Below, piece by piece: positions 666 to 59,487 of a stretch of DNA of 64,000 nt. How positions within the stretch are numbered: the stretch's first letter is position 1; each line of letters opens with the position of its first letter. The stretch covers positions 62,001 to 126,000 of the forward strand of contig NZ_WUMV01000006.1 of NCBI RefSeq assembly GCF_009826895.1, read 5' to 3'. The DNA comes from Stappia sediminis. Its GTDB lineage: Bacteria > Pseudomonadota > Alphaproteobacteria > Rhizobiales > Stappiaceae. The notes beneath the pieces were generated by a model. It was given only the letters and a program-made list of their open reading frames with translations. It was not told where the DNA came from and searched no databases. The translations under genes were made by a program, and so were the position numbers.

Positions 666-1265
666 TTACGACGCGGCCTGCAAAAGCTCGTCGACGTATT
701 CCCAGTTGACGAGGCTGTCGAACCAGGCCTCCAGATACTTCGGGCGCGCGTTGCGGTAGTCGATGTAGTAGGAGTGCTCCCACACATCGCAGCCCAGAAG
801 CGGGGCTGCGCCATGCACCAGCGGGTTTTCGCCGTTCGGCGTCTTCATGACGACGAGCTTGCCGTCCTTCAGCGCCAGCCATGCCCAGCCGGAGCCGAAC
901 TGTGTAACGCCGGCGTTGATGAAGTCGGCGCGGAACTTGTCGAAACCGCCGAGGTCGGAGTCGATCTTCGAAGCCAGCCCGCCGGGCAGCGACTTGCCGC
1001 CGCCGTTCGGCTTCATCCATTTCCAGAAGTGGATGTGGTTGTAGTGCTGGCCGGCGTTGTTGAAGAGCCCGGCGTTCTTGCCGTAGCTTTCCTTGACGAC
1101 GTCCTCGAGCGACTTGCCCTCAAGGCCGCTGTCCTTCAGCAGGTTGTTGCCGTTGGTGACATAGGCCTGATGGTGCTTGTCGTGGTGGTACTCCAGCGTC
1201 TCGGCCGACATATACGGCCCGAGCGCGTCATAAGCATAGGGAAGATCGGGAAGTTCGAAAGCCAT
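666..1265 (-). CDS. sodB: Iron-type superoxide dismutase (Fe/Mn family)
   Basis: It converts superoxide to oxygen and hydrogen peroxide in the cytoplasm. The 199-residue length fits the family, and all four metal ligands are present: His27 (in YHHDKHHQAY), His77 (in HYNHIHFW), Asp160 and His164 (in CDVWEHSYY). Gln73, in NNAGQHYNH, sits where iron enzymes carry the active-site Gln and where manganese enzymes have Gly. This favours iron, although rhizobial members can accept either metal. There is no signal peptide. The start is supported by an AGGAGG ribosome site 7 bases upstream. The gene stands alone and converges on the chemoreceptor gene. Confidence 0.97.
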   Translation of the reverse strand: MAFELPDLPYAYDALGPYMSAETLEYHHDKHHQAYVTNGNNLLKDSGLEGKSLEDVVKESYGKNAGLFNNAGQHYNHIHFWKWMKPNGGGKSLPGGLASKIDSDLGGFDKFRADFINAGVTQFGSGWAWLALKDGKLVVMKTPNGENPLVHGAAPLLGCDVWEHSYYIDYRNARPKYLEAWFDSLVNWEYVDELLQAAS

Positions 1266-1473
1266 CGGACGCCTCCTGTTATGGTCTCATGAAAAATTCG
1301 CGAGACTTCCGTCTCGTGGGGGAACCTTCAAGCGCGAACATAAGGGCCTCGCCACTCTACGGCAATGCCCGCGGATCGGAATTTGGAAATATTTTTCTTG
1401 TTATTTTCCGGCTTCGGTGCTTCACCCTTTGAACGCTTGAAAACCGCATTATGTTCCGGCCCGTCAGGGAGAA

Positions 1474-2646
1474 ATGTCCAACATGAAGCCAGCCCCGGGA
1501 TCGCCCGTTCTGCTTGCCCTGGCCGGCTTTCTGGCGCTGGCGACTGCCATGGGCATCGGCCGCTTCGCGCTGACACCGATCCTGCCCTTCATGATCGAGG
1601 GCATTCCCCTTTCGACCGCCGATGCCGGCTTCATCGCATCGGCCAATTATCTTGGCTATCTCATCGGCGCGCTTGGCGCTTCCGCGCTCCCTTCATTTGG
1701 CGACGGGCGTGGCTGGTTCTTCTTAGGGCTCGTGCTCACCGTGCTTCTAGCCGCCGGCATGGGGGTGAGTGGAGACCTGACCTACCTTGCGGTGGACCGT
1801 TTCATCGCAGGCCTTGCAAGCGCGCTTGTTCTCGTCTTCTCCGCAACGCTCATCATCGAGCCGGTGACGCGGATGGGCCGGCCGGAGCTTGTCGCCGTCC
1901 AGTTCGGGGGTGTCGGCTTCGGCATCATGCTTTCGGCCGGGCTCGTCGGCTTGCTTGGGGCGCATCAGGCCGGCTGGGACACGATGTGGTTGCTGAGCGG
2001 CGCGCTCGCGCTTGTCGCCGTTGCGCTGATCGCATTCCTCGTTCCCGCGCGGGAAAAAGCAGCACCATCCCCCGCTCGCCCGGTTGATACCGCGAACGGC
2101 AGGCACCGCTCGGCCCTTTTGAAGCTCACGCTCGCCTATGGGCTTTTCGGCTTCGGCTACATCATCACAGGCACGTTTTTGACGACCATCCTGCGCGGAT
2201 CGTCGCACCTTCGCCACCTTGAAGCACCGGTCTGGGCGATGGTCGGTTTCGCGGCCTCCTTCTCGCTCTGGTTCTGGGGCAGGGTCGCCGCCCGCATCGG
2301 CAACTCGCGCGCTTTCGCGATCGCCTGCATGGTGGAGGCCGTCGCCGTGCTGCTCACGGTGGTAAGTGCCGCGCCCCTTGCCTTCTTTGTCGCCGCTTTC
2401 CTGTTCGGCGGCACATTCGTCGGCATCACCGGCGTCGGCCTTGTCGAGGCGCGGCGCATGTCACGCGCAAACCCCGCGCGCTCCTTCGGGCTGATGACGT
2501 CGTCTTTCGGCCTCGGCCAGGCGCTCGGCCCGACGGCCGCCGGCATAGGCGCGGAAATGACCGGAAGCTTCGCCCTTCCCTCGCTCGCCGCCGTGGCGAC
2601 GCTGGTCGTCGCCACGTTGCTTACGTTCAATCTGCCGAGGGATTGA
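1474..2646 (+). CDS. MFS permease of the YbfB/YjiJ type
   Basis: A 390-residue, very hydrophobic protein with about twelve membrane segments. The N-terminal block GIGRFALTPILPFM, followed by a glycine-rich second helix (ANYLGYLIGAL), is typical of the YbfB/YjiJ group of major facilitator permeases (PF06779). Substrates of this group are mostly unknown, so none is assigned. A second ATG nine bases downstream (1483) has better spacing to GGGAG than the first, so the true start may be there. The gene stands alone after a roughly 200-base A/T-rich gap divergent from sodB. Confidence 0.9.
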   Translation: MSNMKPAPGSPVLLALAGFLALATAMGIGRFALTPILPFMIEGIPLSTADAGFIASANYLGYLIGALGASALPSFGDGRGWFFLGLVLTVLLAAGMGVSGDLTYLAVDRFIAGLASALVLVFSATLIIEPVTRMGRPELVAVQFGGVGFGIMLSAGLVGLLGAHQAGWDTMWLLSGALALVAVALIAFLVPAREKAAPSPARPVDTANGRHRSALLKLTLAYGLFGFGYIITGTFLTTILRGSSHLRHLEAPVWAMVGFAASFSLWFWGRVAARIGNSRAFAIACMVEAVAVLLTVVSAAPLAFFVAAFLFGGTFVGITGVGLVEARRMSRANPARSFGLMTSSFGLGQALGPTAAGIGAEMTGSFALPSLAAVATLVVATLLTFNLPRD

Positions 2647-2714
2647 AACTGTCTGAGACGATCAACGGGTTTGAAGCTGTCTTGCGGAAAACATCGATAT
2701 ACGAAGAACGTCAT

Positions 2715-2890
2715 CCCGGTCCGCGTGCGCTTTGGCGCATCGCGAGAACCGGGATCCAGCGCATCTGCTGCGCGCAAGCGCACTTAAAATCTGTTTCGTA
2801 CGGGCTTCGCCCGCAACTGATTTCTGGCCCCCCGATCAGGCCGAGGGCAGGCCCCGGATCGGCGCTCGGCTTCGCCTCACTGGTCCGGGG
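2715..2890. repeat. Two palindromic intergenic repeats (REP-like)
   Basis: The gap between the permease and the aminotransferase holds two hairpins. One is CCCGGT...ACCGGG (2715-2753) with an inner TGCGC/GCGCA stem, inside the phrase TCATCCCGGT...ACCGGGATCCAG that recurs between genes in many alphaproteobacteria. The other is CCCCGGA...TCCGGGG (2852-2890). Neither has a T-tract. I class them as dispersed palindromes by appearance only. No coding potential is seen here. Confidence 0.5.
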
Positions 2891-2924
2891 TGAGGCCAAT
2901 ATCCGCTCCAAAGTGTAAGTCTCC

Positions 2925-11137: not shown

Positions 11138-13129
11138 ATGGCCGAATTCGAACTGGACCTGCCGCCTGAGTTCCTGACCGCCAGCCGCGAAGACTGGCAG
11201 GCCGCCGTCGAGCGGGCGCTCAAGGGAGCGTCTTTCGAGCGGCTTCGCTCGCACACCTACGACGGATTGGTGATCGAGCCGCTTTACGGCCGGGAGCGCG
11301 ATGCCCCTGCTCTAAAGGCAAGGCAGGCGGGCCTTCCCTGGAGGGTCGTGCAGCGCGTCGATCATCCCGAATCCGGAGAAGCCAATGCGCTTCTGCTGCA
11401 GGATCTGGAAGGCGGAGCCACAGGTATCGAGCTTGTCTTTTCGTCCTCCGCGCGCGCTCGCGGCTGCGGCCTTTCCGCCGACAATGTGGAAAGGCTCGAC
11501 AAGGTGCTGGATGGCGTCCTTCTCGATCTCGCCGAGTTTCGCATCGATGCGGGCTATGAAACGACTGCGGCGCTTGCCCTCTTCCTGGCGTTGGCGGAAA
11601 GGCGCGGCGTCGCGCCTTCGGCGCTGAAGCTCGTCGGCACGTCGGACTATGTCGGCAAGCTCGCCCTCACCGGCGTTTTGCGCAATCCTCCTTCCGTGCT
11701 GCGCCCGCGCCTTGGCGATCTTGGGCATTTCGCGCGCGGCCACGGGCTCGATATGCCGGTCGTTCATTGCGACGGGCGCGTGTGGCATGACGGCGGCGCG
11801 TCGAAGGCGCAGGAGCTTGCCTATGTATTCGCAACGGCGATCCACTATCTTCGCGACCTGGATGCCTGCGGCATAGCGGCGGAAGATCTTGCGGGCATGA
11901 TCGGCTTCACGCTTGCCGCCGATACCGATCAGGTCGGCACCATCGCCAAGGCGCGCGCCGCCCGCCGGATGTGGGCGCGCCTGCTCGAGGCGAGCAACCT
12001 GCCGCAAAGGCCGATGCATCTTCACATGCAGACGTCCTGGCGGATGATGAGCCGGCGGGACCCCTGGGTAAATCTTCTGCGGACCACCATCGCGTCGTTT
12101 TCGGCCGGCATCGGCGGCGCCGACAGCGTCACCGCACTGCCCTTTTCCTCCGCACTTGGATTGCCGGACGCCTTCGCAAGGCGGATTGCCCGCAACACCC
12201 AGTCGATCCTGCTTGAGGAATCGAACCTTCACCGGGTCTGCGACCCGAGCGCGGGGTCCGGCGCCATCGAGGCGCGCACCTCAGACCTTGCAGAAGCCGC
12301 GTGGCGCCTCATGCAGGATATCGAGCGCGGCGGCGGCATCGTCGAAGCGCTCAGGTCCGGCAAGGCGCAAGGGGCGATCGGCGAGGTGCGCGATGCGCGC
12401 GCGCGCGACATCGCGACCCGGCGCTACCGCATCACCGGCACGAGTGCCTTCCCGGATATCCACGAAAAGCCCGTTTCCGTGCTCGCCGCCAGGCCCGATG
12501 ACGTAAGCGAGGCGGGCCAGCACGTGGAACTTCGCGCACCCGGCAAGGGCGAACTCATGCGGGCCTTGCTCGACGCCGCGCGCAAGGGCGCTTCGCTTGC
12601 GGATATTCTTGTCTCGCGCAAGCGCGGCGAGGCCGTCACTGCCGAAGCGATTCTCCCTCACCGGGATGCGGAACCGTTCGAGGCGCTGCGCGACGCGGCT
12701 GACGAGGCGAAAGTACGGCCCGCCGTGTTCCTTGCGACGCTTGGCCGCCTGTCCGAGTTCACGGCGCGCGCCACCTGGGCCAAGAACTTCTTCGAGGTCG
12801 GCGGCATCGAAGCGCAAGGCTCGGAACAGTACGACGATATCGCCGCCGCCGTCGCCGCATGGAAGGCGGCCGGTTCTCCCCTCGTCTGCCTTTGCTCCTC
12901 GGATCGCACCTATGAGACACTCGCCGAAGAAGCCGTGAAGGCGTTCCGCGAGGCTGGCGCGGGAAAGGTCTACATGGCGGGCCGCCCCGGTGAATCGGAG
13001 CGCCGCAAGGCGCTTTCGAATGCCGGCGTGGAGACGTTCCTTTATGAAGGCTGCGATGCGCTCGCCCTGCTGCGCGCAGCCCATGAACACCTCGGCCTTG
13101 GCCCCGCGGCCAGCCGCAAGGACGCTTGA
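11138..13129 (+). CDS. mutA: Methylmalonyl-CoA mutase, small (beta) subunit
   Basis: Non-catalytic partner of the B12-dependent mutase that converts (R)-methylmalonyl-CoA to succinyl-CoA, the last step of propionyl-CoA use. 663 residues: a degenerate TIM-barrel domain (with RRMWARL, FSAGIGGADSV and GLPDAFARRIARNTQ blocks) and a C-terminal B12-like domain. In that domain the cobalamin-ligating DxHxxG is absent (SPLVCLCSSDRTYE in its place), as expected for the small subunit. The start is set by AGGAG 7 bases upstream. The large-subunit gene follows 12 bases downstream. Confidence 0.93.
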   Translation: MAEFELDLPPEFLTASREDWQAAVERALKGASFERLRSHTYDGLVIEPLYGRERDAPALKARQAGLPWRVVQRVDHPESGEANALLLQDLEGGATGIELVFSSSARARGCGLSADNVERLDKVLDGVLLDLAEFRIDAGYETTAALALFLALAERRGVAPSALKLVGTSDYVGKLALTGVLRNPPSVLRPRLGDLGHFARGHGLDMPVVHCDGRVWHDGGASKAQELAYVFATAIHYLRDLDACGIAAEDLAGMIGFTLAADTDQVGTIAKARAARRMWARLLEASNLPQRPMHLHMQTSWRMMSRRDPWVNLLRTTIASFSAGIGGADSVTALPFSSALGLPDAFARRIARNTQSILLEESNLHRVCDPSAGSGAIEARTSDLAEAAWRLMQDIERGGGIVEALRSGKAQGAIGEVRDARARDIATRRYRITGTSAFPDIHEKPVSVLAARPDDVSEAGQHVELRAPGKGELMRALLDAARKGASLADILVSRKRGEAVTAEAILPHRDAEPFEALRDAADEAKVRPAVFLATLGRLSEFTARATWAKNFFEVGGIEAQGSEQYDDIAAAVAAWKAAGSPLVCLCSSDRTYETLAEEAVKAFREAGAGKVYMAGRPGESERRKALSNAGVETFLYEGCDALALLRAAHEHLGLGPAASRKDA

Positions 13130-13141
13130 GAGGAAGGGTAG

Positions 13142-15304
13142 ATGAGCCGTATCCCGGACTTCTCGAAGATCGATTTCAAACCTGCCGGAGAACGTGCCGT
13201 GGCTGGCGATGCCGCGCCGTGGGAAACGCCGGAAGGGATCACGGTCAAGCCCGTCTACGGCGGGGAGGACACGGCTGCTCTTGCCCATATCGACACATGG
13301 CCCGGCCTGCCGCCGTTCCTGCGCGGTCCTTATCCGACCATGTACGTCCAGCAGCCCTGGACGGTGCGCCAGTACGCCGGATTTTCGACGGCTGAGGATT
13401 CCAACGCCTTTTACCGGCGCAATCTCGCGGCAGGCCAGAAGGGGCTATCGGTCGCCTTCGACCTTGCCACCCACCGCGGCTATGACAGCGACCATCCGCG
13501 CGTTGCGGGCGACGTCGGCATGGCCGGAGTCGCAATCGATTCCATCTTCGACATGCGCACGCTTTTTTCGGGCATTCCGCTCGACAGGATGAGCGTGTCG
13601 ATGACCATGAACGGCGCTGTCCTGCCCGTCATGGCGCTTTATATCGCGGCGGCCGAAGAACAGGGCGTTTCGCAGGAACAGCTTTCCGGGACCATCCAGA
13701 ACGACATCCTCAAGGAGTTCATGGTCCGAAACACCTACATCTATCCGCCGCAGCCTTCGATGCGGATCATCTCCGACATTTTCGCCTACACCTCCTCGCA
13801 TATGCCGAAGTTCAATTCGATCTCGATCTCCGGCTATCACATGCAGGAAGCGGGCGCGACGGCGGACCTTGAGCTTGCCTACACCATTGCCGACGGCATC
13901 GAATACGCGCGCGCCGGTGTCGCGGCCGGCCTCGGGATCGATGCCTTCGCCCCCCGCCTGTCCTTCTTCTGGGCGATTGGCATGAACTTCTTCATGGAGG
14001 TGGCGAAGCTTCGCGCCGCGCGCCTCATCTGGGCGAAGCTCATGAAGGAGAATTTTGCGCCGGAGAACGCAAAGTCGCTGTCGCTGCGCACGCACTCGCA
14101 AACCTCCGGCTGGTCGCTGACCGCGCAGGACGTTTACAACAACGTCGCCAGAACCTGCGTGGAAGCCATGGCGGCAACCCAGGGCCACACCCAGTCGCTG
14201 CACACCAACGCGCTTGACGAGGCGCTTGCCCTGCCTAGCGATTTTTCCGCCCGCATTGCCCGCAACACGCAGCTTTTCCTGCAGCAGGAATCGGAGACGA
14301 CGAAGACGATCGATATCTGGGGCGGCTCGCACTATGTAGAGCGGCTGACCGCCGACCTCGCCGAAAAGGCGCTCGCCCATATCGCCGAGGTCGAGGGGCT
14401 CGGCGGCATGGCGAAAGCGATCGAGAAGGGCGTGCCGAAGCTTCGCATCGAGGAGGCCGCCGCCAAGACCCAGGCGCGCATCGACGGCGGTTCGCAGACG
14501 GTCGTCGGCGTCAACAGGTACCGGCCCGAGACCGAAGACATGATCGACGTCCTGAAAGTCGACAATGCCGAGGTTCGCGCAAGGCAGATCGAAAAGCTTC
14601 AAAGTCTCAAGGCGGAGCGAGACGAGAAAGAGACGCAAGCCGCGCTCGATGCGCTTCGCCAGGGTGCCGCGTCGAACGGCAACCTGCTCGACCTCAGCAT
14701 CAAGGCGGCGCGCGCGAAGGCGACCGTCGGCGAGATCAGCCAGGCGATGGAAGACGTCTTCGGGCGTCACAAGGCCGAGATCAAGACGATCTCCGGCGTC
14801 TACAAGCGGGAGGCCGGCACCATGTCCGACCAGATCGCCAGGCTTCACAAGCTTGTCGAGACCTTTGAGGAAAACGAAGGCCGCAGGCCCCGCATCCTTG
14901 TCGCCAAAATGGGACAGGACGGTCACGACCGCGGCCAGAAGGTGATCGCCTCGGCCTTCGCCGACCTCGGCTTCGACGTCGACATCGGCCCGCTTTTCGC
15001 GACGCCTGAGGAGGCCGCCCGCCAGGCGGTCGAAAACGACGTTCACATCGTCGGCGTGTCGTCGCTCGCCGCCGGTCACCTCACCCTCGTTCCGGCGTTG
15101 AAGAAGGCTCTGGAGGATCAAGGCCGCGGGGATATCATGATCGTCGTCGGTGGGGTTATCCCCCCTCAGGATTTCGATGCGCTGCACAAGGCAGGCGCAT
15201 CGGCTATCTTCCCGCCCGGCACCGTGATCGCCAAGGCGGCGGAGGACCTGATCGCCGAACTCAACCGCACTCTCGGACATGACCCTGCGGAAGCCGCGGA
15301 GTAA
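13142..15304 (+). CDS. mutB: Methylmalonyl-CoA mutase, large (alpha) catalytic subunit
   Basis: 720 residues. The N-terminal TIM barrel binds the CoA ester, with [18 protein letters not shown], the active-site neighbourhood [10 protein letters not shown], and [11 protein letters not shown]. The C-terminal cobalamin-binding domain has the intact DGHDRG motif and a GVSSLAAGH loop, so His ligation of B12 is possible. The enzyme isomerises methylmalonyl-CoA and succinyl-CoA. A GAGGAAGG site precedes the ATG, and the gene is co-transcribed with mutA. The GTPase chaperone MeaB is encoded about 2 kb further on. A very strong terminator closes the unit. Confidence 0.97.
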
Positions 15305-43173: not shown

Positions 43174-43544
43174 GCGGGCTGTTGCTCTCGTCAATTTCAC
43201 TTCCAGGGCGATTCCCGGTTGGAATAGATTGGCCTGAAGGTTCCAGGAGACCGAGATCGCGATCCCCAAGACCTTCCCGCCCGCTGCCTGGCGTTGTATG
43301 GGCCGAACGCTCCCACTCTTCAAGGCCAAGCATCGCACCTATGCCCGACCCTGCCTATTCCCAATTCGGGAGCTGTTCAGCTCGCAAGAGTTGCCACGTC
43401 GCGATAGTTATCAGAAGACAAAAGAGAAAATAACGAAGAAATAACGATGGATTTACGCCACATAAAAAGTATTCACACTAATATAACGTTCACTTGACGG
43501 GCATTGTGCCGGTATCTCACTCAAGAATTCAAGAGGTGTCGAAC
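43174..43544. other. 371-base divergent region (sigma-54 regulator / heme peroxidase)
   Basis: Becomes A/T-rich from about 43400. It holds the 9-bp direct repeats listed separately and a TAATAT (43479-43484) that could be a -10 element for the peroxidase operon. I find no -24/-12 sigma-54 promoter. No gene is visible. Confidence 0.5.
43428..43447 (+). promoter_or_regulatory. Direct repeat AAATAACGA x2, 11 bp apart, upstream of the peroxidase operon
   Basis: Perfect copies at 43428-43436 and 43439-43447 put the repeats one helical turn apart. A third partial copy (ATAACG, 43483-43488) lies 42 bases further on, about four turns. SARP regulators bind direct repeats with 11- or 22-bp period, and a SARP gene is in this cluster, so this is a candidate operator. 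Confidence 0.5.
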
Positions 43545-45221
43545 ATGCACAGCGCATCGACCAAGCAATCTCTTTCCTCTTTTATTGCCCGTTATAACGC
43601 TAAAAAGCGTTCCGAAAAGGCTACGGGCTTCGGGGAAACCACAACACCTCCACTCGTCCCGGAAGAAATATACGTGGGAGTGGAAAAAGCCGACGGCAGC
43701 GGCGAGATCGACGAAGCTCGTACCAAACGCCTGTTCGCCGCCCTGACGAAGAAGATCGAGCGAACACGCTTTCCCTTTGCCGACAATATAGGCCACATCA
43801 ATCCGCATATTCCGGCCGGCTACACGTATCTTGCGCAATTCATCGCCCACGACCTGACAATCAACAGCGGGCTCGACGAGGGTCTTGAACCGGATACAAA
43901 ACCTATAAACCTGCGCAGCCACCCGCTTCATCTTGATTGTCTTTACGGATACGGGCCATCGATCGAGCCCGCCTGCTACGAACTTTTCACCAGGCGGCCT
44001 CTCCCGCAGCGCATCGGCTGGCCGAGGACGCGTTTTCGCCTCGACGGCATGTCGGATGATAATTTCATGAGGCCGGCGGACCCAGCACGCCATCCGCGGC
44101 GCGATATCGGCCGCCTGGTCGAGCCGCGAGGCGCGAACACCGCGGGGATTGCGTTGATAGCGGACCTGCGTAACGACGACAATGCCGTGATTTCGCAGCT
44201 TACCGCTCTTCTTCAGCTCGCTCACAACACCGCGATGGACAAACTGGAAGGGGGAAAGGACCCGGCAACGCCGGAAGCAAGCTTCCGCAACTTTTCCAAG
44301 GTCCGCAGCGCCCTCACCTGCGTTTACCGGCAAATCATAAGCCAGGATCTTTTGCCGCGCCTCCTGAACGGCGAGGTGGTCGCGCATTATGAAGCGAACG
44401 ACAGCCCGTTTTTCGACACGCGCGATGGGGACGATTTCGTTACGCCCGAATTCGCGCATGCCGCCTACCGTGCCGGACACGCGATGGTCCGCGAATCCTA
44501 CTTCTTCAACAGCGAACCGCCGGTCGAGCATAACTTGATGGACGTCCTGCGGCGCAATTCGGAACGCAACCCGCCGAAAACACCGCACAATCGCGACTGG
44601 ATCATCGCATGGTCCTATTTCTTCGACCTCGGCATTCGCGAGGCCCGCGCCTCCGGCCGGCTGGAACCGCGTTTCGAAACGCCGCTGCATGACGACACGC
44701 TTTTTCCCGCGATGGAGGAAAACGAGCCCGCCGGGCTTGCCTATCGCGACCTCGTCAGGAGCGCGACGACGAGCGTGCGAAAGATCGACACCCTTGCCGA
44801 ACAGATCGCCTACCGCCAGCCGGAGCTCGCTGCCGCAAGTCCCTGGATCAACTCGCCGGCCATCAGGCAGGAGGCGATGCGCCGTTGGATCGAAGCCGAT
44901 ACGACGGTCGACCTTGGCGAGTTGAAGGAAGAAGCGATCAGCAACCCTCCGCCGATGGTCTACTTCCTCGTAGAGGCCGCAGCCGCCGAGGACGGCTTTC
45001 GCCTAGGCCCGCTCGGCTCGGTCGTTTTGGCCGAAACCTTCTATCGCGCGCTATCGCACCGCCGCTCCGTTCCATTTGACGAAAGGGAGCCGCGCGAAGA
45101 CGCCGAGAAGATATTCGGCATGCCCACACCCGCGAGCATGCCAGACCTGATCCGTTGGGTGGACGAGAACATGTCATTGGAAGACAAGACATTTCTCGAA
45201 GCGGATATTCCATTGATCTAA
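43545..45221 (+). CDS. Animal-type heme peroxidase
   Basis: 558 residues of the animal/bacterial peroxidase-cyclooxygenase superfamily (PF03098). The distal catalytic pair is His102-Asp103 in LAQFIAHDLT. The proximal heme ligand is His312 in AAYRAGHAMVRESYFF. A conserved Arg lies between them, near YRQIISQDLLPRL. No signal peptide or membrane segment is seen, so it is probably cytoplasmic, which is unusual for eukaryotic relatives but common in bacterial ones. AAGAGGTG precedes the ATG at 43545; the frame is open to 43494 but without a better start. It is followed 36 bases later by the 130-residue protein, forming one operon. Confidence 0.88.
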   Translation: MHSASTKQSLSSFIARYNAKKRSEKATGFGETTTPPLVPEEIYVGVEKADGSGEIDEARTKRLFAALTKKIERTRFPFADNIGHINPHIPAGYTYLAQFIAHDLTINSGLDEGLEPDTKPINLRSHPLHLDCLYGYGPSIEPACYELFTRRPLPQRIGWPRTRFRLDGMSDDNFMRPADPARHPRRDIGRLVEPRGANTAGIALIADLRNDDNAVISQLTALLQLAHNTAMDKLEGGKDPATPEASFRNFSKVRSALTCVYRQIISQDLLPRLLNGEVVAHYEANDSPFFDTRDGDDFVTPEFAHAAYRAGHAMVRESYFFNSEPPVEHNLMDVLRRNSERNPPKTPHNRDWIIAWSYFFDLGIREARASGRLEPRFETPLHDDTLFPAMEENEPAGLAYRDLVRSATTSVRKIDTLAEQIAYRQPELAAASPWINSPAIRQEAMRRWIEADTTVDLGELKEEAISNPPPMVYFLVEAAAAEDGFRLGPLGSVVLAETFYRALSHRRSVPFDEREPREDAEKIFGMPTPASMPDLIRWVDENMSLEDKTFLEADIPLI

Positions 45222-45257
45222 TTTCGAGCCACCCGCAACATTGAAGGAGACTATTTG

Positions 45258-45650
45258 ATGACCAAGCAACTCGAACGCATTCAGATTTTCGACCATAAGG
45301 CCTTCGGGCGCCTGATCGCAGATTACGCCACCGGCAGGAAACCCTGGCCCGCTTCGATCGAGGAATTCAGGGCGGAGGTCGAAGGCCCGAATATCGCGAA
45401 AATTCCCAGCCACATGAAGGCCATCCAAGTGGTGCAGCCGTCGGACGAAATCTTCTTCCTGCGCTTGCCGCCGAAGACACTCTTCTCGCAATCGCTGGAA
45501 CGTTACGCGGCGAACGATGCGAACGGAACCACCGAGCCCTATCCGGCGCCCCCCTTCTATTCCGACATGGTTTGCCGGGAAGAGCGCCTGACGCATACCG
45601 ACTTCTTCCTGAGCCGCGTTGCCGACTACACGATCTCCGTTTGCTCTTAA
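45258..45650 (+). CDS. Unknown 130-residue protein after the heme peroxidase; C-terminus ends in Cys-Ser
   Basis: Not recognised. It begins MTKQLERIQIFDHKAFG, has an amphipathic middle (KAIQVVQPSDEIFFLRLPPK), a Pro/Tyr-rich stretch (EPYPAPPFYSDM) and ends TDFFLSRVADYTISVCS, with Cys106 and Cys129 the only cysteines. No signal peptide, membrane helix or known fold is seen. AAGGAG lies 9 bases before the ATG. It shares a transcript with the heme peroxidase and ends at the terminator facing the YcaO operon. It could be a small partner of the peroxidase or a substrate for the YcaO enzyme; the length is large for a peptide precursor. Both ideas are inference. Confidence 0.85.
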   Translation: MTKQLERIQIFDHKAFGRLIADYATGRKPWPASIEEFRAEVEGPNIAKIPSHMKAIQVVQPSDEIFFLRLPPKTLFSQSLERYAANDANGTTEPYPAPPFYSDMVCREERLTHTDFFLSRVADYTISVCS

Positions 45651-45675
45651 GCGCCGGAACCCGTCTGAAAGACTT

Positions 45676-45705
45676 GCCCCCGGATCGTGGATCCGGGGGC
45701 TTTTT
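45676..45705. terminator. Shared terminator between the peroxidase and YcaO operons
   Basis: A perfect 11-bp stem, GCCCCCGGATC / GATCCGGGGGC, with a GTG loop and a TTTTT tail on the + strand. It lies between convergent stops (45650 and 45719) and can separate the two units. Confidence 0.9.
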
Positions 45706-45718
45706 CTTGCGCTCAACT

Positions 45719-47833
45719 TCAGTTCGCGATCAGGCTGCCGCGTGCCGCGAACGGAGGAAAGTCCATCCCGGCCAGCCTGAGCCCTTCGCGAAGCCTTTGC
45801 CAGCCTTCCCTGTCGTTCAACGGGAAACACTGACCAAGCCAATGCGCGATCTCTTCACGGGTGGGTTCGTCTGCTCCGGTCCAGCGTGACACCAGATAAC
45901 TTTCCATCGTCGAAAGGCATTTTCGAGCTCCCTGCAGATCGCCCGTGTGGGCAAGGGCAGCGATGTACCACGCCTCGACCCCCGGATAGCCGGCGCTGAA
46001 ATGCGGAAACGCTTCGAGCACGGCTCCATAGTCGCCGCACAGGAACATGACGCCGATAAAGTAGCTCCAGTAGATCGGCGAGGTCAGCATGCCGGCATCA
46101 TGAAGTTGCCTTGCCAGCACCGTCGCTTCTTCCCGGCGACCGTAAAACGCGAAAGCATGCGCCACCGAAAGCACCGTCCAAGGATCATTGTTATTGAGAT
46201 CGAGCGCAAGGCGATGCTGCTCCTCCGCCGCCTCGTAGTTTCCCTGTAGCGCGAGCGTCCAGCCGGCGCACAGATAAGCTCGCGAATCGAACGGATCCAA
46301 CCCTATCGCCGTACGGGCAAGTTCCGTGGCGCGGGCTATATTCTGCGCGGTGCGCGGCTGTCCGGGAAAGATTATGTGGCGGGAGTTCAGGATTTGCGCA
46401 AGCGTGCAATATGCCGGCCCGAACTGGGGATCCTGCTCGATGATCGCCTCGAGGATCGCCTGAGCCCGGTGAGAATCCTCCAGCTTCCAGGTGTAGTGCA
46501 GTTGCTGACCCTTGAGCAGGCGGTCATAGGACATCAATGATGCGACCGGCACCTTGGAAAGCTGCGCGAGACGCTCGGCCGAAATATTGACGTTCATCGC
46601 CATGGCGATATTGCTGACCAGTTGACCTTGCAGCTCGAAGAATTGAGCCGCATCGAGCTTGAAATCCCGGCCCCAGATGTAGGCGTTGGACCGTGAATTT
46701 CGCACGGCGACCGAAATGGAAGCCTGCTCCCGGGAACTGACGCTGCTGATCGATACCTTGTAGACGGGGGTTCCCGAACGCACGAGTTCCTCGGTTTCAG
46801 CTTCCACGACCGACCATTCACGAAAGCGGACCAGACGGGAGATTAGATCGTGCCGAAAGACCTGCGCCATGCGAATACTGCGCGCGGGTTCATCAAGTTG
46901 GAGAACCTGCTCGACAATGATGACCGGCCATACCTCGCCCGGCCAGGGCGAGATCCTTTGCGCTCCGCCTGCCTGGGAGACGGCGGGCTTTTCCCTTTCG
47001 GCGAAACCTGCCTCCGCACGGCCCGCGGCTTCCGTCGATTGCGGGTATCTTTCCAGCTTGATGTTTACGACAAGCGCCTGTGTCCGCTCGGAAGGCTGCG
47101 TATCGAATTCCTCGTCGAGAACACGCCAGAGGTCTTCATATGCCCTAACCGCACCGGCAAAGTCTCCCGAGGCCGCGCGCGCGTTCATCAAGGCCCGGCA
47201 GGCCGGCTCATGCGTGGGATCCAGGTTAAGAAGAGCTATCGCCGCGTCCTGGTTCGAGGCCTGGTCACGCGCCCCGTTCAAACGGTCCTCAAGCGATGTG
47301 CGCAACCGGTCCTGGAGGTGCTGACGCCTGACCCGAAGCCAGCCGATGAAGCTTTCCTCGTTCAGCGCCTCGAAACCTTCAAGCAAGCGATCGGGAAGGC
47401 GTTTCTCGTTCAACAGGGATGGCGGTGTCTTCTCACCTTTGGCAAGCTCGTCCAGCAGGGCGTCGACATCCGTCGCGACACGCGTCTTGTCGAGATAAAT
47501 GGTGAGTTTATCGGGATGAAGGCCTTCGAAACCTGCCGCTTCCAGCTCTCGTCTCAGAATAAGCAGCGTCTGACGCAGCGACGAGCGCGCCCGGTCTTCC
47601 GAACTTTCACCCCAGAGCAACCCCGCCGCCATTTCGCGCGTGAGGCGTCCGTCGGTCGTCAGGCACATATAGGAAAGCAGCGCCTCGGCCTTGCGGGAAC
47701 GGAACCTCAGCGCGTGTCCGGCAACGGTGAATCCCGGCAAACCGAACAGCGTGGCCTGAAGCTCCGCACCTCCGCCTGCCAGTCCAGCCCCGTTGCGTTC
47801 GTCCCTGGGCACCTTGTTCTCCGGTAATGCCAT
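45719..47833 (-). CDS. SARP/BTAD-type transcriptional regulator with TolB-like and TPR regions
   Basis: 704 residues. An N-terminal OmpR-type winged helix (FGLPGFTVAGHALRFRSRKAEALL, residues roughly 30-53) leads into a bacterial transcriptional activator (BTAD) helical domain (residues about 110-260, with SSLRQTLLILRREL and AVRAYEDLWRVLDEEFDTQPS). A middle alpha/beta region (VFRHDLISRLVRF, YIWGRDFKLD) is of the kind found in CadC/adenylate-cyclase-associated regulators. TPR-like repeats reach the C-terminus. The ATG at 47833 follows the YcaO stop by one base, so the two genes are translationally coupled; a TTG five codons earlier is the alternative. It is likely the local regulator of the cluster. 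Confidence 0.88.
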   Translation of the reverse strand: MALPENKVPRDERNGAGLAGGGAELQATLFGLPGFTVAGHALRFRSRKAEALLSYMCLTTDGRLTREMAAGLLWGESSEDRARSSLRQTLLILRRELEAAGFEGLHPDKLTIYLDKTRVATDVDALLDELAKGEKTPPSLLNEKRLPDRLLEGFEALNEESFIGWLRVRRQHLQDRLRTSLEDRLNGARDQASNQDAAIALLNLDPTHEPACRALMNARAASGDFAGAVRAYEDLWRVLDEEFDTQPSERTQALVVNIKLERYPQSTEAAGRAEAGFAEREKPAVSQAGGAQRISPWPGEVWPVIIVEQVLQLDEPARSIRMAQVFRHDLISRLVRFREWSVVEAETEELVRSGTPVYKVSISSVSSREQASISVAVRNSRSNAYIWGRDFKLDAAQFFELQGQLVSNIAMAMNVNISAERLAQLSKVPVASLMSYDRLLKGQQLHYTWKLEDSHRAQAILEAIIEQDPQFGPAYCTLAQILNSRHIIFPGQPRTAQNIARATELARTAIGLDPFDSRAYLCAGWTLALQGNYEAAEEQHRLALDLNNNDPWTVLSVAHAFAFYGRREEATVLARQLHDAGMLTSPIYWSYFIGVMFLCGDYGAVLEAFPHFSAGYPGVEAWYIAALAHTGDLQGARKCLSTMESYLVSRWTGADEPTREEIAHWLGQCFPLNDREGWQRLREGLRLAGMDFPPFAARGSLIAN

Positions 47834-47834
47834 T

Positions 47835-49166
47835 TCAGTAGAGCTCAACCCGGTCTCCGGGTATTTCGTCCGTAGCGGCCAGTGTTCGTTGATGGGACAG
47901 GCGCTTCGAAATCAGTTCGGACGGATCCGGCTGCAGCCCGGAAACAATCGCCCGCGCGACCGGAATATCGAAATCGGATCGGGTCAAGTCTATAACGCGA
48001 ACCGCATGTCCGCGACTGTCAAGGCGCGTTGCGAGAAGATTGAGGCGCACGGCCTGATCGTCATTGGCCGAAGACACCGTTTCGTAAGGTGAAATGCGGG
48101 TCGGCTGAAGGTTGACCCAATCACTTCGCACCATCGCTGCACGGGCAATATGCTTGCGATCCGTCTCGTTCAGTCCTTGATCCCCCCGTTCCGCCCGCTT
48201 AGCCGCGACGACCCGGTCGGCAAGCTCGATCTGTAGCAGTTCCTCAATGGCGCCGCGCAGCGCCTCCTCCATCGATCCGCCTGCCGCAAATCCATAAGCC
48301 ACTTTTGTCCCGGCAGGTTCCGATGAAAGTGCGGCCGCGACCGGAATGCCAAGGTCGTTCGTCAGGTTCAAGAACCAGGAACACCTGTCATCGCGACCGT
48401 TGCGGTAGCGTTTGAGCAGTTCGGCGACGCCGCTTGCGGCCAATGTTTCCAGAGTGATAGCGCCTGGACGCCGTCCCCCCTTCCACCAAAGCGCGACCGC
48501 GTCGCGTTCCACCCATTCCAGGATAGCCCTGTACGCCGCATCTTCGCGGCTGCGGCCAGCGGCAACGCCGATCCCCATGAGATATGGCAACCCGTTGGGC
48601 CTGCGCCCGGGCGTCCTGCGCCAGCAAAGATCTGCCGGAGCAGCGTCTTTCGCCCCCTGCGGCAATCGGACGGTTTCCACCCAGTCCAACGCTTTGCCGC
48701 ATTCGCCCCCGCGCAATTCATGAAACTCGCAGCCGTCGACCCCATCCGCATCAATACCGCCACGCTCGATAGCGTGAACGCGCGGATCGTCCGGCATCTC
48801 GAATTGGCTCACGAATTCACATGCTTCCGCCACACAAGCGCGAAACGCCGCGAGCCGGGTGAGACCGACCCCGGAAACGGAGGTGCCTGCATCCACTTTG
48901 GTGCCATAGGCCAAAGTGGACACTGAAGCACCAAAACAAGAAAGGCCCGGTGCATCGGGCGCCGGCAGTTCGAAAACACGATCGAGGCCGGCCGCAAATC
49001 GCAGGAGCTTCGCAAGGTCGCGCTTGTCCGCTCCCTCGAGAGCCGGCGTCGCGCCGAGCCATTTCAAAAAGTCCGCCCCCGGGCCGCCAGCCTCCGGAAA
49101 ATTGGCGCTGCTAACAAGATCGGCCGCGGAAACAAGCGTTTGCCTTGCTTCCGATTGCATGGTCAT
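47835..49166 (-). CDS. YcaO-domain protein (ATP-dependent peptide backbone cyclodehydratase/thioamidase family)
   Basis: 443 residues. YcaO enzymes phosphorylate amide backbones to make azolines, thioamides or amidines in ribosomal peptides, or modify ribosomal proteins. The ATP/Mg residues fall in order: Glu114/Glu117 (CVAEACEF), Glu217/Glu220 (ILEWVERDA) and Glu308/Glu309/Gln312 (AIEELLQIE). This predicts an active enzyme. The C-terminus ends GDRVELY, not in the proline-rich PxPxP tail of cyclodehydratases that work with E1-like partners. No TfuA, E1-like, RRE or dehydrogenase gene is next to it. The ATG at 49166 follows GGAAGGGG; upstream in-frame codons look non-coding. It is the first gene of the two-gene unit. 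Confidence 0.88.
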   Translation of the reverse strand: MTMQSEARQTLVSAADLVSSANFPEAGGPGADFLKWLGATPALEGADKRDLAKLLRFAAGLDRVFELPAPDAPGLSCFGASVSTLAYGTKVDAGTSVSGVGLTRLAAFRACVAEACEFVSQFEMPDDPRVHAIERGGIDADGVDGCEFHELRGGECGKALDWVETVRLPQGAKDAAPADLCWRRTPGRRPNGLPYLMGIGVAAGRSREDAAYRAILEWVERDAVALWWKGGRRPGAITLETLAASGVAELLKRYRNGRDDRCSWFLNLTNDLGIPVAAALSSEPAGTKVAYGFAAGGSMEEALRGAIEELLQIELADRVVAAKRAERGDQGLNETDRKHIARAAMVRSDWVNLQPTRISPYETVSSANDDQAVRLNLLATRLDSRGHAVRVIDLTRSDFDIPVARAIVSGLQPDPSELISKRLSHQRTLAATDEIPGDRVELY

Positions 49167-50001
49167 GTGCTGACATCCCCTTCCACCCCATTCAACAATT
49201 GCGACGCGATAGCAGGTGACGTCAAGTGCAACCGGGCACGCTTTTTCGTAGATAACGCTGCGTATTCCCCTGCTGATATGACCAATTTCCGAAAAAAGCC
49301 TACCTTTCTTGCCTGATGCAATGGCCGCAGAGAAAATCACGCAAAAATAACGCGATTTTTGATGTCATTCACCTGTCGTTTTTTCCGATTGAGCGAAATT
49401 CCGCAGAGGAGCGACACTGGGGGGACAATTAAAATCACCGGTTGTGATGAATTTCCAGTTGAACGCCGACTTGTAAGCGTACTGGGTGCCTGGAGAAGAA
49501 CGGTCGAGGCGCGCATTGGAGGATTCGCGAAACCGATCTTTGCTGCCGTTCAACTCCGCACTTGCGAAGCCACGGTGGGTATCGCCCGTCGGAAACGCAC
49601 GTGACCCAACTTGACCGGGTCCCGCGCCGGCCCGGTTCCCTTTGGGTATCACCATCTTCTTGAATGCCAATGGCTCAGGAAAACAGACCGGTTCGATATT
49701 GCAGTTATGTTCCGAAAATCACTGCTTCCAAGATATTCGCGCAAACCTGTTGGCGCGAGCCGGGATTTAAGCACCAAGTCCTATTAAAGGTCTTTTAAAA
49801 AATTGGCCATCCATACGTTTCATTCGCGTGGGTCGTATGGATGGCCTTTTATTTTTTGCTGCGTAATCAATCAAGGCGTTTCTTCATCACACTCGAACAA
49901 ACAACTTGTGATCTCTGTGGTGGACTCGAAACCGCCGGCTTCCCTTCAACATTTCCGGCACTATTTCAAGACAGCTTTTGTCAATTCGCTCTGGCGAGCT
50001 T
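49167..50001. other. 835-base intergenic region upstream of the YcaO gene
   Basis: Holds the YcaO promoter zone (49167-49360), with ATAACG (49252-49257) and AAATAACG (49345-49352) elements that match the repeat upstream of the peroxidase. A minus-strand frame at 49365-49670 starts only with TTG and lacks a ribosome site. GACACTGGGGGGACA (around 49413-49427) is reminiscent of the outer ends of some insertion sequences, so a degraded IS scar is possible. A strong bidirectional terminator follows at 49805. No gene can be supported. Confidence 0.5.
49805..49857. terminator. Bidirectional terminator with a 13-bp perfect stem
   Basis: GGCCATCCATACG / CGTATGGATGGCC around a 16-base loop, with TTTTATTTTTT on the + strand and AATTTTTTAAAA on the - strand. 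No annotated gene ends here, which implies an unrecognised transcript on one strand. Confidence 0.8.
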
Positions 50002-51053: not shown

Positions 51054-52733
51054 ATGCTTGGAGGCAGCCGGGCGGACATCATAAAGAAGTCGTCGCGTCC
51101 GAAGGGACGGCAATTGAGCGAGGACGCGGTCGAGGACGTGCGCGACCTCCTCGGCGATGAGCCGCTCCGACGCGATCTGTTGATCGAATATTTGCACCGC
51201 ATTCAGGACCGTCACGGCCAATTAAGCGCGGCTCACCTTAAGGCGCTCGCGATGGAAATGCGCCTTTCGGAGGCGGAGGTCTTCGAAGTGGCAAGCTTCT
51301 ATCATCACTTCGATATAGTGAAGGATGACGAGCAAGCGCCGGCTCCCGTAACGGTGAGGGTATGCGACTCGCTTTCCTGCGAACTGGCAGGTGCCGACGA
51401 GCTTGTCGCAGCACTGGAGGCCGGCTGCGACCCGGCCAACGTGCGCATCGTGCGCGCGCCGTGCCAGGGGCGCTGCGCGGAAGCGCCGTCAGCTTGCGTC
51501 GGCCAGCGCGAGGTCGGCTATGCGACCGCCGATGCCATCGGCCAGATCATTGAAGACAACGCGACCGGCGCGGTCGTTCCCGGCTACATCGACCTTGAAC
51601 AATACCGCGCTGAGGGCGGCTATTCGCTTTACGGGGCCTGCCTGAAAGGCGAGCGTACGCCGGAAGAGCTTATCGATATGCTGTCTGACGCCGGGCTGCG
51701 CGGGCTGGGAGGAGCAGGCTTTCCCGCCGGCAAAAAGTGGCAGATCGTTCGTTCCTTCGACGGGCCGCGCCTGATGACCGTGAACGGTGACGAGGGCGAA
51801 CCAGGCACATTCAAGGATCGCTACTATCTTGAGCGCGATCCGCACCGAACGCTCGAAGGAGCGCTTATCGCCGCATGGGCGGTGGAGGCGGAGCGCATCT
51901 ATATCTACATGCGCGACGAATATCAGGGCGTCCTGGAAATCCTGAGGCGCGAGGTCGAGGCGCTCACCGAAGCCGGGCTTTGCGATCTCTGCCCGATCGA
52001 GATTCGCCGCGGCGCTGGCGCCTATATCTGTGGCGAGGAAAGCGCCATGATCGAATCGATCGAAGGCAAGCGCGGCCTGCCCCGCCATCGTCCGCCGTAC
52101 ATTGCAGAGGTTGGCCTGTTCGGCCGTCCGACGCTCAATCACAATGTTGAAACGCTCCACTGGATAAGGACGATCGCGGAAAAAGGGCCCGGCTGGTTCG
52201 CGGATCAGGGCAAGGAAGGTCACAAGGGCCTGCGCTCTTTTTCCGTTTCGGGCCGGGTTGCCGAACCGGGCGTGAAAATCGTTCCCGCCGGCACGTCGGT
52301 CGATGAACTGATCGAGGCTTGCGGCGGCATGGCGGAAGGCCATGAATTCCGTGCGTTCCTGCCCGGCGGCGCATCCGGAGGCATCTTTCCGGCATCCATG
52401 GGCGATCTGCCGCTCGACTTCGGAACTTTCGAACCGCACGGCGGCTTCGTTGGCTCCCACGCGGTGGTGATCCTTTCCGACAAGGACGATCTCAAGAAGG
52501 CCGCGCTCAATCTGTTGCGTTTCTTCAAGCACGAAAGCTGCGGTCAATGTACGCCCTGCCGCGCCGGCACTGAGAAAATGGTCGCCATGCTCGAGGCGGA
52601 CAATTGGGACGACGGCCTTCTCGCCGACCTGGAGCAGGTCATGCGCGATGCCTCGATCTGCGGACTTGGCCAGGCCGCGTCGAACCCAGTTCGTTCGGTT
52701 CTCAAGATAATGCAGAAGGAAGCAGGCCGATGA
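51054..52733 (+). CDS. fdh1B: NAD-dependent formate dehydrogenase, fused beta subunit (NuoE+NuoF-like)
   Basis: 559 residues joining two modules. Residues about 20-165 are NuoE-like, with a thioredoxin-fold 2Fe-2S site (Cys in VCDSLSCELAG and APCQGRCAEAPSACV). The rest is NuoF-like and binds FMN and NAD: GLGGAGFPAGKKW, NGDEGEPGTFKDR, GAYICGEESAMIESIEGKRG, and the 4Fe-4S site ESCGQCTPCRAGTEK with a distal Cys in SICGLGQ. It passes electrons from formate oxidation to NAD+. The NuoE-NuoF fusion is the form seen in Methylobacterium FDH1 rather than the three-gene fdsGBA. GGGAGG precedes the ATG. It overlaps the alpha gene (ATGA). Confidence 0.93.
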   Translation: MLGGSRADIIKKSSRPKGRQLSEDAVEDVRDLLGDEPLRRDLLIEYLHRIQDRHGQLSAAHLKALAMEMRLSEAEVFEVASFYHHFDIVKDDEQAPAPVTVRVCDSLSCELAGADELVAALEAGCDPANVRIVRAPCQGRCAEAPSACVGQREVGYATADAIGQIIEDNATGAVVPGYIDLEQYRAEGGYSLYGACLKGERTPEELIDMLSDAGLRGLGGAGFPAGKKWQIVRSFDGPRLMTVNGDEGEPGTFKDRYYLERDPHRTLEGALIAAWAVEAERIYIYMRDEYQGVLEILRREVEALTEAGLCDLCPIEIRRGAGAYICGEESAMIESIEGKRGLPRHRPPYIAEVGLFGRPTLNHNVETLHWIRTIAEKGPGWFADQGKEGHKGLRSFSVSGRVAEPGVKIVPAGTSVDELIEACGGMAEGHEFRAFLPGGASGGIFPASMGDLPLDFGTFEPHGGFVGSHAVVILSDKDDLKKAALNLLRFFKHESCGQCTPCRAGTEKMVAMLEADNWDDGLLADLEQVMRDASICGLGQAASNPVRSVLKIMQKEAGR

Positions 52734-58608: not shown

Positions 58609-59487
58609 ATGCAGCAAGCGGCCATCAAAATCGCCGGAGAACAGGCACCTGAAGAACGGGACACGGCAGCGACGGCCGTGCCCGCGCTTCAGCGCGCTTT
58701 TGGCGAGGCGCGCATCTCCTTTAAGAAGCGGGGGGAACGAAGCGCTCTTGGGGAGCTTTATCAGGCGGGCTGCTGCAAGGTGCGCCTGCCGCGCATCGGT
58801 AACGCCGGGCCTGAGGCCGTTCTCATCAACACGTCCGGTGGCCTGACCGATGGCGACAGGTATTCCGTGGACGCGAGCTGGCAAACATCCTCTCACGCGA
58901 CGATCACGACACAGGCATGCGAACGGATCTACCGCGCCCGGCAAGGAAATGCGGAAGTCGTCAACACCTTGCGCGTCGCGGATCAAGCCATCGCGCACTG
59001 GCTCCCCCAGGAGACGATCCTGTTCGACGGTGGCCGGCTGACACGCCAAGCAACCGTCCATCTGCAAGGTTCCGCCCGTTTCCTGGGGCTCGAGGCGTTT
59101 ATCCTCGGACGGCCCGCCATGGGCGAGAGGGTACGTTCCGGGCGCTTCAGCGACAGCTGGCGAATTGAACGCGATGGCGAGCTTTTGTTTATCGACCGTA
59201 TTTCCCTTTGCGGAGATATCGAGGCAAAGCTCGACCGGCCGGGGTGCGGAAACGGAGCCCGCGCCTTCGCGACGCTTCTTTACGCAGGGCCGGACAGCGA
59301 AGCGAAATGCGCGTTGCTGCGCGATATCCATCCCGGTTCGAGCATTACATTCGGCTGCACAGATCTTGATGGCGTCGTCCTTGCCCGCTTCCTGGCGCCG
59401 GACGGACAGTCTCTGCGGTCGGCGCTCAGGCCTGTGTTGGAGAAGCTGCGTGGCGGCGAAGGCTTGCCGCGCGTCTGGATGACATGA
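58609..59487 (+). CDS. ureD: Urease accessory protein UreD
   Basis: Scaffold that docks on apo-urease and, with UreF and UreG, delivers nickel. 292 residues. The family blocks ALLINTSGGLTDGD (here VLINTSGGLTDGDRY), TQACERIYRA and GRLTRQATVHLQG are visible, as is the FLGLEAFILGRPAMGE block. It starts the operon. A GGGGAG-type ribosome site precedes the ATG. The gap upstream (about 200 bases) holds the channel terminator and probably the urease promoter. ureA follows after 25 bases. Confidence 0.95.
   Translation: MQQAAIKIAGEQAPEERDTAATAVPALQRAFGEARISFKKRGERSALGELYQAGCCKVRLPRIGNAGPEAVLINTSGGLTDGDRYSVDASWQTSSHATITTQACERIYRARQGNAEVVNTLRVADQAIAHWLPQETILFDGGRLTRQATVHLQGSARFLGLEAFILGRPAMGERVRSGRFSDSWRIERDGELLFIDRISLCGDIEAKLDRPGCGNGARAFATLLYAGPDSEAKCALLRDIHPGSSITFGCTDLDGVVLARFLAPDGQSLRSALRPVLEKLRGGEGLPRVWMT

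Follow-up and report, generated by a model that had tools for sequence, protein, structure and literature searches.

A conserved YcaO, heme peroxidase and SARP cassette in Stappia sediminis, with a small cysteine-tailed protein as its proposed substrate

The four-gene locus

We analysed 64,000 nucleotides of the Stappia sediminis genome (assembly GCF_009826895.1, contig NZ_WUMV01000006.1, positions 62,001 to 126,000), hereafter the window, in which four genes form two convergent units: one encodes an animal-type heme peroxidase (POX) and a 130-residue protein (P130), and the other a YcaO enzyme coupled to a SARP-type regulator (Table 1). An earlier note, made from the letters of the window, had singled out this arrangement and had suggested that the peroxidase and the small protein could supply oxidation and substrate to a YcaO reaction under SARP control. 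The observation itself was confirmed: an open reading frame (ORF) check found all four frames intact, the YcaO and SARP genes are separated by 1 nt, and a strong terminator-like stem-loop lies between the two units, distinguished by its strength and position alone and not by the number of such sites (10 observed in the region versus a shuffle mean of 8.3).

Table 1. Features of the Stappia sediminis cassette, in positions of the window.
Feature	Position	Strand	Remarks
Candidate SARP operator 5' of POX, TAACG-N6-TAACG, 11-bp phase	43431-43446	+	
POX, animal-type heme peroxidase, 558 aa	43545-45221	+	PF03098 35.2 bits (cut-off 25)
P130, 130 aa, proposed modification substrate	45258-45650	+	starts 36 nt 3' of POX
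Codons of P130 C-terminal tag R120-V-A-D-Y-T-I-S-V-C129-S130	45615-45647	+	
Terminator-like stem-loop, 11 pairs (9 G-C), then TTTTTCTTGC	45676-45700	+	between convergent units
SARP-type regulator, BTAD + TPRs, 704 aa	45719-47833	-	Pfam BTAD 44.2 bits
YcaO without fused E1/RRE domain, 443 aa	47835-49166	-	PF02624 139.8 bits, residues 98-411
Candidate SARP operator 5' of YcaO, TCACG-N6-TAACG, 11-bp phase	49337-49352	+	

The claim that P130 belongs to no known family also held, with no match in Pfam or NCBIfam (NCBIfam of June 2026), and none of the four proteins matched the PADLOC protein models of anti-phage defence systems at E up to 0.01. The winged helix at the N-terminus of SARP is a by-eye call, without a profile match. 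As to the usual partners of YcaO enzymes, none of which the earlier note had seen at the locus, the Stappia sediminis genome has a single YcaO gene and matches neither TfuA (PF07812) nor the TIGR03882 cyclodehydratase. Among six cassette genomes, this one included, TIGR03882 was matched in none and TfuA in one, on a contig other than that of the cassette. Apart from YcaO itself, Pfam and NCBIfam scans revealed no domain in the 443-aa enzyme, although its N-terminus may hide an RRE.

The four genes are conserved as a set

We examined the conservation of the set by two routes. First, genomes were scanned with YcaO as bait, which is independent of the other three genes, and the best 80 of 354 confirmed relatives were retained. 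Forty-seven of these 80 loci belong to the same subfamily (YcaO profile E below 1e-80), and of them 45 have SARP, 40 P130, 37 POX and 37 all four genes. The remaining 33 loci have neither P130 nor POX, and SARP once, at the cut-off used. The subfamily loci come from Bradyrhizobium (19), Stappia, Stella, Belnapia, Acidisphaera, Roseomonas, Paeniroseomonas, Albimonas, Hyphomicrobium and metagenome-assembled genomes (MAGs), one of which is assigned just to "Proteobacteria". Six pairs of loci (L numbers; G numbers are genomes) were inferred to be duplicates, namely, L038=L022, L066=L026, L044=L029, L082=L030, L058=L032 and L063=L033; the six duplicates were kept in this tally and in the background rate of the operator given below, and removed for the operator spacing test.

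Second, a P130 search of 297 genomes of the order matched 18, Stappia sediminis included, and we compared up to 20 kb around the match in each of the other 17. A P130 frame together with at least part of YcaO was found in 16 of these 17 loci, SARP in 15 and POX in 13; the locus from G062 (L036) has a weak P130 match with stop codons and none of the genes. When the ORFs of the 18 loci were compared all against all, nothing but these four families recurred beyond the window's family, antisense shadow ORFs aside; no protease or transporter gene is recurrent in the cassette loci, and no separate peptide substrate recurs across the 18. Wider draws of genomes were searched with a P130 profile, which matched 4 among 385 from the class and 5 among 398 from the phylum, Stappia sediminis included in both, with every match of the phylum draw within the window's order. 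POX and SARP adjoin P130 in each of the matches that these draws added, three from the class and one from the phylum. Plasmid records gave no P130 match by tblastn; a remote relative on a Mesorhizobium huakuii plasmid was reached via YcaO instead.

In the 297 genomes, POX scored above 110 bits at 20 places, and each of these has a YcaO match no more than about 7 kb away (tables compared by eye), the YcaO copy being broken at one of them, whereas weaker POX matches are mostly not near YcaO. YcaO is matched in all 17 genomes of this draw whose P130 is credible, and POX in 14 of them.

Gene order is not fixed. In L146 and L148, YcaO, POX and P130 run in the same direction with SARP convergent, and in the plasmid-borne cassette of Mesorhizobium huakuii (L141) SARP faces POX together with a 133-aa protein whose last residues are RLGDYVMSRCK, while YcaO is divergent. 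Remote members share roughly 26-41% identity with the window proteins. The adjacency of the four genes is thus not accidental. The earlier note had reasoned that it would be so if SARP-YcaO pairs regularly lacked the other two genes and these regularly stood elsewhere; this is largely not what we found, as P130 is missing from 5 of 45 SARP-YcaO loci, and in two of the five the contig ends close by. Because the genes co-occur in remote families and in shuffled orders, a functional link between them is strongly supported.

P130 ends in a near-invariant cysteine tail

After proteins with identical last 60 residues were merged, 62 of 63 distinct P130 proteins end in R-x-x-[DE]-Y-x4-Cys-x-COOH; the sole exception (L161, 1495-1899, minus strand) has one extra residue after the Cys, which is therefore third from the end (...HCGP). 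The 11,917 ORFs of 60 aa or more in L037-L116 contain this motif 43 times, and a slightly tighter version matches exactly the 43 P130 ORFs of those loci. An alignment of 33 chosen rows, a subset of the relatives, has G17, R120, Y124 and C129 invariant. Moreover, C129 is the sole conserved Cys of the protein (33 of 33 rows, versus 6 in the next-best Cys column), and information content reaches 2.8 bits per column over the last 14 residues, compared with 1.5-2.0 elsewhere. Outside the tail, G17, P31, L70 and P71 are also conserved. The final residue is variable (A, G, T, Q, V, R, M, S, K, H or E).

The AlphaFold model of P130 predicts a helical body (mean pLDDT 82.9), with the last ten residues at 70 and residues 126-130 outside the last helix; it found no fold match in the PDB at E up to 0.001. 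The tail is unaltered in three P130 genomes without a POX match, which, together with the presence of YcaO in all 17 credible P130 genomes and of POX in 14, indicates that the tail tracks YcaO more than POX.

In the more divergent cassettes L142 and L152 (15 nt gap in both) and L153 (41 nt), POX is followed by small proteins that we could not align with P130, and they end in FTRCR, ITKCR and LKRCR, respectively, that is, in Cys-Arg and without the tail Tyr. Likewise, a Mesorhizobium cassette (L104) has, between SARP and YcaO, a 112-aa protein that ends in IMGCR and resembles nitrile hydratase leader peptide (NHLP) precursors. These four proteins came out of a search for ORFs that have a Cys close to their C-terminus, such that their number is no test, while their position by POX or YcaO is independent of the search. 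The near-invariance of the Cys tail makes substrate the best-supported reading of P130, and we infer that YcaO would act at Cys129.

A relationship of P130 itself to NHLP leader proteins was considered and found no support. The hhalign probability was about 5%, which is not significant, against a comparison profile built from 10 matches in one genome (G081); the same comparison gave 73-75% for the L104 protein, the sole NHLP-like one, which makes the relationship no more than a lead. Searches of 17 P130 members with TIGR03793 and NCBIfam returned nothing at E up to 10 bar two unrelated weak families, and TIGR03793 matched 54 of 101 genomes, one of them (G081) over the cut-off.

Some side observations concern these small proteins. 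Three Bradyrhizobium loci (L057, L067 and L071, about 12400-13330) each have a tandem pair of P130 genes, and all six share the end motif. The sub-cut-off NHLP match of Stappia sediminis (L134, 1447-2046, minus strand) is by eye a nitrile hydratase alpha subunit (CTLCSC), and G081, a genome from the window's family, carries NHLP-type precursor genes in series at four places (L137-L140).

A phased direct repeat precedes both units

SARP control, which the earlier note had proposed, found support in a direct repeat shared by both units. With duplicates removed, T[CA]ACG-N6-T[CA]ACG, in which the half-sites are phased by 11 bp, occurs 5' of POX in 41 of 53 regions and 5' of YcaO in 31 of 65 (44/57 and 33/70 with duplicates retained). 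The pattern was derived from these same promoters, and a fairer test is therefore the spacing control, in which all phases from 6 to 20 bp other than 11 gave 0-8 POX regions (12 bp gives 8/53) and 0-2 YcaO regions. The rest of the loci contain 40 matches in 1,306,224 bp, equivalent to 0.014 per 460 bp. In the window, the short pattern has three matches versus 0.40 expected by shuffling, and 1 of 100 shuffles reached three. An extended pattern matches the Stappia sediminis genome only 5' of POX and at 49334-49352, but it was derived from both sites and matches them by construction.

According to the accessible text of two papers, SARP sites are heptameric direct repeats with 4-bp spacers, that is, classical 11-bp units (PMC10972967, PMC3367932). 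The window regulator, with its BTAD domain and an 11-bp-phased predicted operator, can be classed as a SARP on these features. It is like the Streptomyces SARPs in BTAD, TPRs and 11-bp-phase direct repeats, and differs from them in its alphaproteobacterial origin, its half-site, T[CA]ACG, and its predicted target, a YcaO-peroxidase cassette. SARP control of both units is supported because the conserved 11-bp-phased repeat lies 5' of each. This repeat and the Cys tail of P130 are both new here. Two further observations are that the third window match to the short pattern lies beyond the cassette, at 58893-58908, and that in L150 a second SARP-like gene (716-2908, plus strand) immediately precedes the cassette SARP.

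Features of the YcaO and peroxidase enzymes

The profile of the YcaO subfamily matches LynD (3.9e-45), TruD and MusD, and, together with the Pfam match, places the window enzyme in the YcaO superfamily as judged by homology. Invariant in 16 sequences are E114, E117, E217, E220, R221, E309 and Q312, with the motif ERDA..LWW, and we take these Glu, Arg and Gln to be nucleotide-site residues.

POX had no match in the PDB by sequence. Using Foldseek, its model matched a cyanobacterial peroxidase, myeloperoxidase, lactoperoxidase and COX-2 (probability 1.00, E 1.3e-9, TM-scores about 0.5). Q98, H102, R209 and H312, which correspond to the distal Gln and His, the catalytic Arg and the proximal His, are invariant in 37 sequences. 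The heme-ester Asp and Glu are not demanded in every family of the peroxidase-cyclooxygenase superfamily. The window POX lacks both: it reads A-Q-F-I-A-H-D and R-N-D-D, with Ala at the ester-forming Asp and Asp at the Glu position, where the signatures in the accessible text of PMC4420034 are G-Q-x-x-D-H-D and R-x-x-E. POX shares with myeloperoxidase and lactoperoxidase the predicted fold, the distal Gln, His and Asp, the catalytic Arg and the proximal His, and differs from them in these two substitutions and in being tied to a YcaO cassette. By predicted fold and retained residues, it qualifies as a member of the superfamily. Separately, the POX frame of one MAG (L032, 10145-11878, minus strand) has a Tat-signal-like beginning (TRRQFMVG...) at its putative start, which the other members seen do not have.

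Comparison with known YcaO systems

The azol(in)e-forming thiazole/oxazole-modified microcin (TOMM) systems, represented by LynD, TruD and MusD, resemble the cassette in the YcaO domain, in the proposed Cys target and in having a second enzyme as the oxidase, here only proposed. However, no fused or separate E1-like partner was found, and the window YcaO has 443 aa as compared with 775 in LynD. The oxidase would be a heme peroxidase and not an FMN dehydrogenase. Furthermore, the candidate substrate has one conserved Cys, second from the end, and not the short, Ser/Thr/Cys-rich core of a classical precursor. Thus, neither the E1/RRE partner nor the precursor type of a classical TOMM is present.

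The E1 partner is likewise missing from the partnerless YcaO enzymes of bottromycin and streptamidine and from the E. coli YcaO that acts on uL16. As the accessible portions of two papers have it, the bottromycin YcaO converts Cys to thiazoline and the E. coli enzyme needs no RRE to recognise a folded protein (PMC8442711, PMC13063428); the word "peroxidase" does not occur in those portions. These enzymes belong to another subfamily, and the cassette also differs in its heme peroxidase, its SARP and its candidate substrate. With YcaO-TfuA thioamidation the cassette would share YcaO backbone chemistry, but TfuA is missing from the genome. As for NHLP precursors, the likeness is confined to the L104 protein, which also ends in Cys-Arg, and does not extend to P130. 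Literature searches, which left out most subscription papers, returned, among the titles and abstract openings listed, no description of this cassette composition, and they gave no pairing of YcaO with a heme peroxidase. The earlier note had suggested that the composition is not among described YcaO pathways.

A proposed modification of the P130 tail

Based on these results, we propose, at a probability of roughly 0.6, that the four genes are one SARP-controlled cassette for post-translational modification, in which P130 is the substrate, and YcaO and POX modify its tail. P130 would be a ribosomally made protein composed of a mostly folded carrier of ~120 residues and a short tail ending in [DE]-Y-x4-Cys-x. 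The partnerless YcaO, using ATP, would activate the backbone amide preceding the penultimate Cys and, most likely, close this Cys to a thiazoline. POX, with H2O2, would then oxidise the tail, most likely from thiazoline to thiazole, replacing the usual flavin dehydrogenase; alternatively, it could perform another oxidation of the Cys-derived group or of the Tyr. SARP would activate both units via the 11-bp-phased repeat. A Cys-derived group is more likely than Tyr to be the common target of POX because POX is kept in L142, L152 and L153, whose small proteins have no Tyr at their ends, although Tyr chemistry may take place in the main group. The ring chemistry and the peroxidase step, like the choice of substrate, are what we infer. 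The interpretation of the earlier note is partly supported: the link between the four genes and their control by SARP gained support, while the action of YcaO on P130 and the target of the peroxidase are predictions.

Because the tail is near-constant and neither a protease nor a transporter gene recurs, we judge that the product would stay bound to the protein, as a cofactor, sensor or signal, and would not be a variable antibiotic. It is tempting to go further, and to see here a new class of YcaO maturation, in which a partnerless YcaO and an animal-type POX turn the C-terminal -Cys-Xaa of a folded carrier into a heterocycle or cross-link that is fixed and protein-bound and that serves, within a dedicated SARP regulon, as a conserved cofactor, sensor or signal and not as a variable antibiotic; to this wider claim we give a little less than even odds. 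If true, YcaO backbone chemistry would be coupled to an animal-type heme peroxidase, and a possible role would emerge for a subfamily of bacterial animal-type peroxidases. The proposal pins down a target residue, the penultimate Cys, and an operator, which makes it directly testable, and the tail and operator together provide a marker for locating more such systems.

Several observations weigh against this proposal. First, POX is missing from some cassettes (L038, L051 and L064), and in one related genus (g3) none of three genomes has a PF03098 match, yet P130, SARP and YcaO are present; the peroxidase is dispensable in places and not always needed, even if Stappia taiwanensis (L037) retains it. 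Second, L074, L076 and L080 have SARP and YcaO alone, without P130 or POX, and L069 has YcaO by itself; in L076, transposase-like ORFs (by eye) come after a shortened SARP. Third, P130 exceeds the usual YcaO precursors in length and apparently also in its degree of folding, has one conserved Cys and no Ser/Thr/Cys-rich core, and showed no significant relation to known leader peptides in the NHLP comparison. Fourth, the P130 search profile includes the tail, so tail-less relatives were possibly missed, and the 19 Bradyrhizobium loci among the 47 imply fewer independent events than the counts suggest. As to other irregular loci, a contig end lies at or near L048, L072 and L073, and in L031 SARP was not found at the locus and POX and YcaO are several kb apart.

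Alternative explanations

The alternative that survives best is that P130 assists YcaO or POX as an adaptor or activator, with its tail docking in an enzyme, and that the true substrate is POX itself or a protein encoded elsewhere. Partner proteins are usual for YcaO enzymes, and a predicted folded, helical P130 with conserved residues outside the tail would suit such a role. We nevertheless hold it unlikely, given that conservation peaks at the extreme C-terminus, where the penultimate Cys is fixed, and that the non-alignable small proteins at the same position have just that end in common.

A penultimate Cys is also present in DsrC and TusE, and P130 could accordingly be a sulfur or redox carrier, whose Cys supplies the peroxidase, or YcaO in a thioamidation, with a persulfide or electrons. 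This option, which we regard as improbable, would account for a single invariant Cys in an end that lies outside the last helix, and for the sulfur source that thioamide-forming YcaO enzymes require in a genome without TfuA. It meets with the lack of any fold match of P130 to solved structures, DsrC/TusE-like ones included, in a general search with the pLDDT 82.9 model that involved no direct DsrC comparison, with the lack of a Pfam match, and with the fact that the loci offer no separate recurrent peptide that could be the substrate.

Quite improbable, in our view, is that the four genes are merely co-regulated, for example under oxidative stress, and act separately. The genes of YcaO, POX and P130 are co-directional in L146 and L148, and the POX subfamily accompanies YcaO at all 20 places above 110 bits, against which stand the two transcription units, the loss of POX in some lineages and the case of G216. 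In this Bradyrhizobium-type genome (L027, about 12205-12894, and L144) the cassette YcaO is broken, and a complete YcaO of the same subfamily, closest among the ORFs compared to that of L064 (Acidisphaera; 58%), lies 1.3 Mb away. Finally, chance adjacency of unrelated genes, to which the patchy distribution of P130 (18 of 297 order genomes) might point, has virtually no probability left, since remote families keep the set, rearranged cassettes keep it too, and an operator is shared.

Genes flanking the cassette

A Pfam scan of six of the flanking ORFs revealed no RiPP (ribosomally synthesized and post-translationally modified peptide) partner; they include a sigma-54 response regulator, a Na/H exchanger and a NuoF-type subunit, and the other three matched no family. 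The NuoF-type gene (51054-52733; Complex1_51K and thioredoxin-like 2Fe-2S) adjoins the cassette and possibly encodes a subunit of an NAD-linked formate dehydrogenase.

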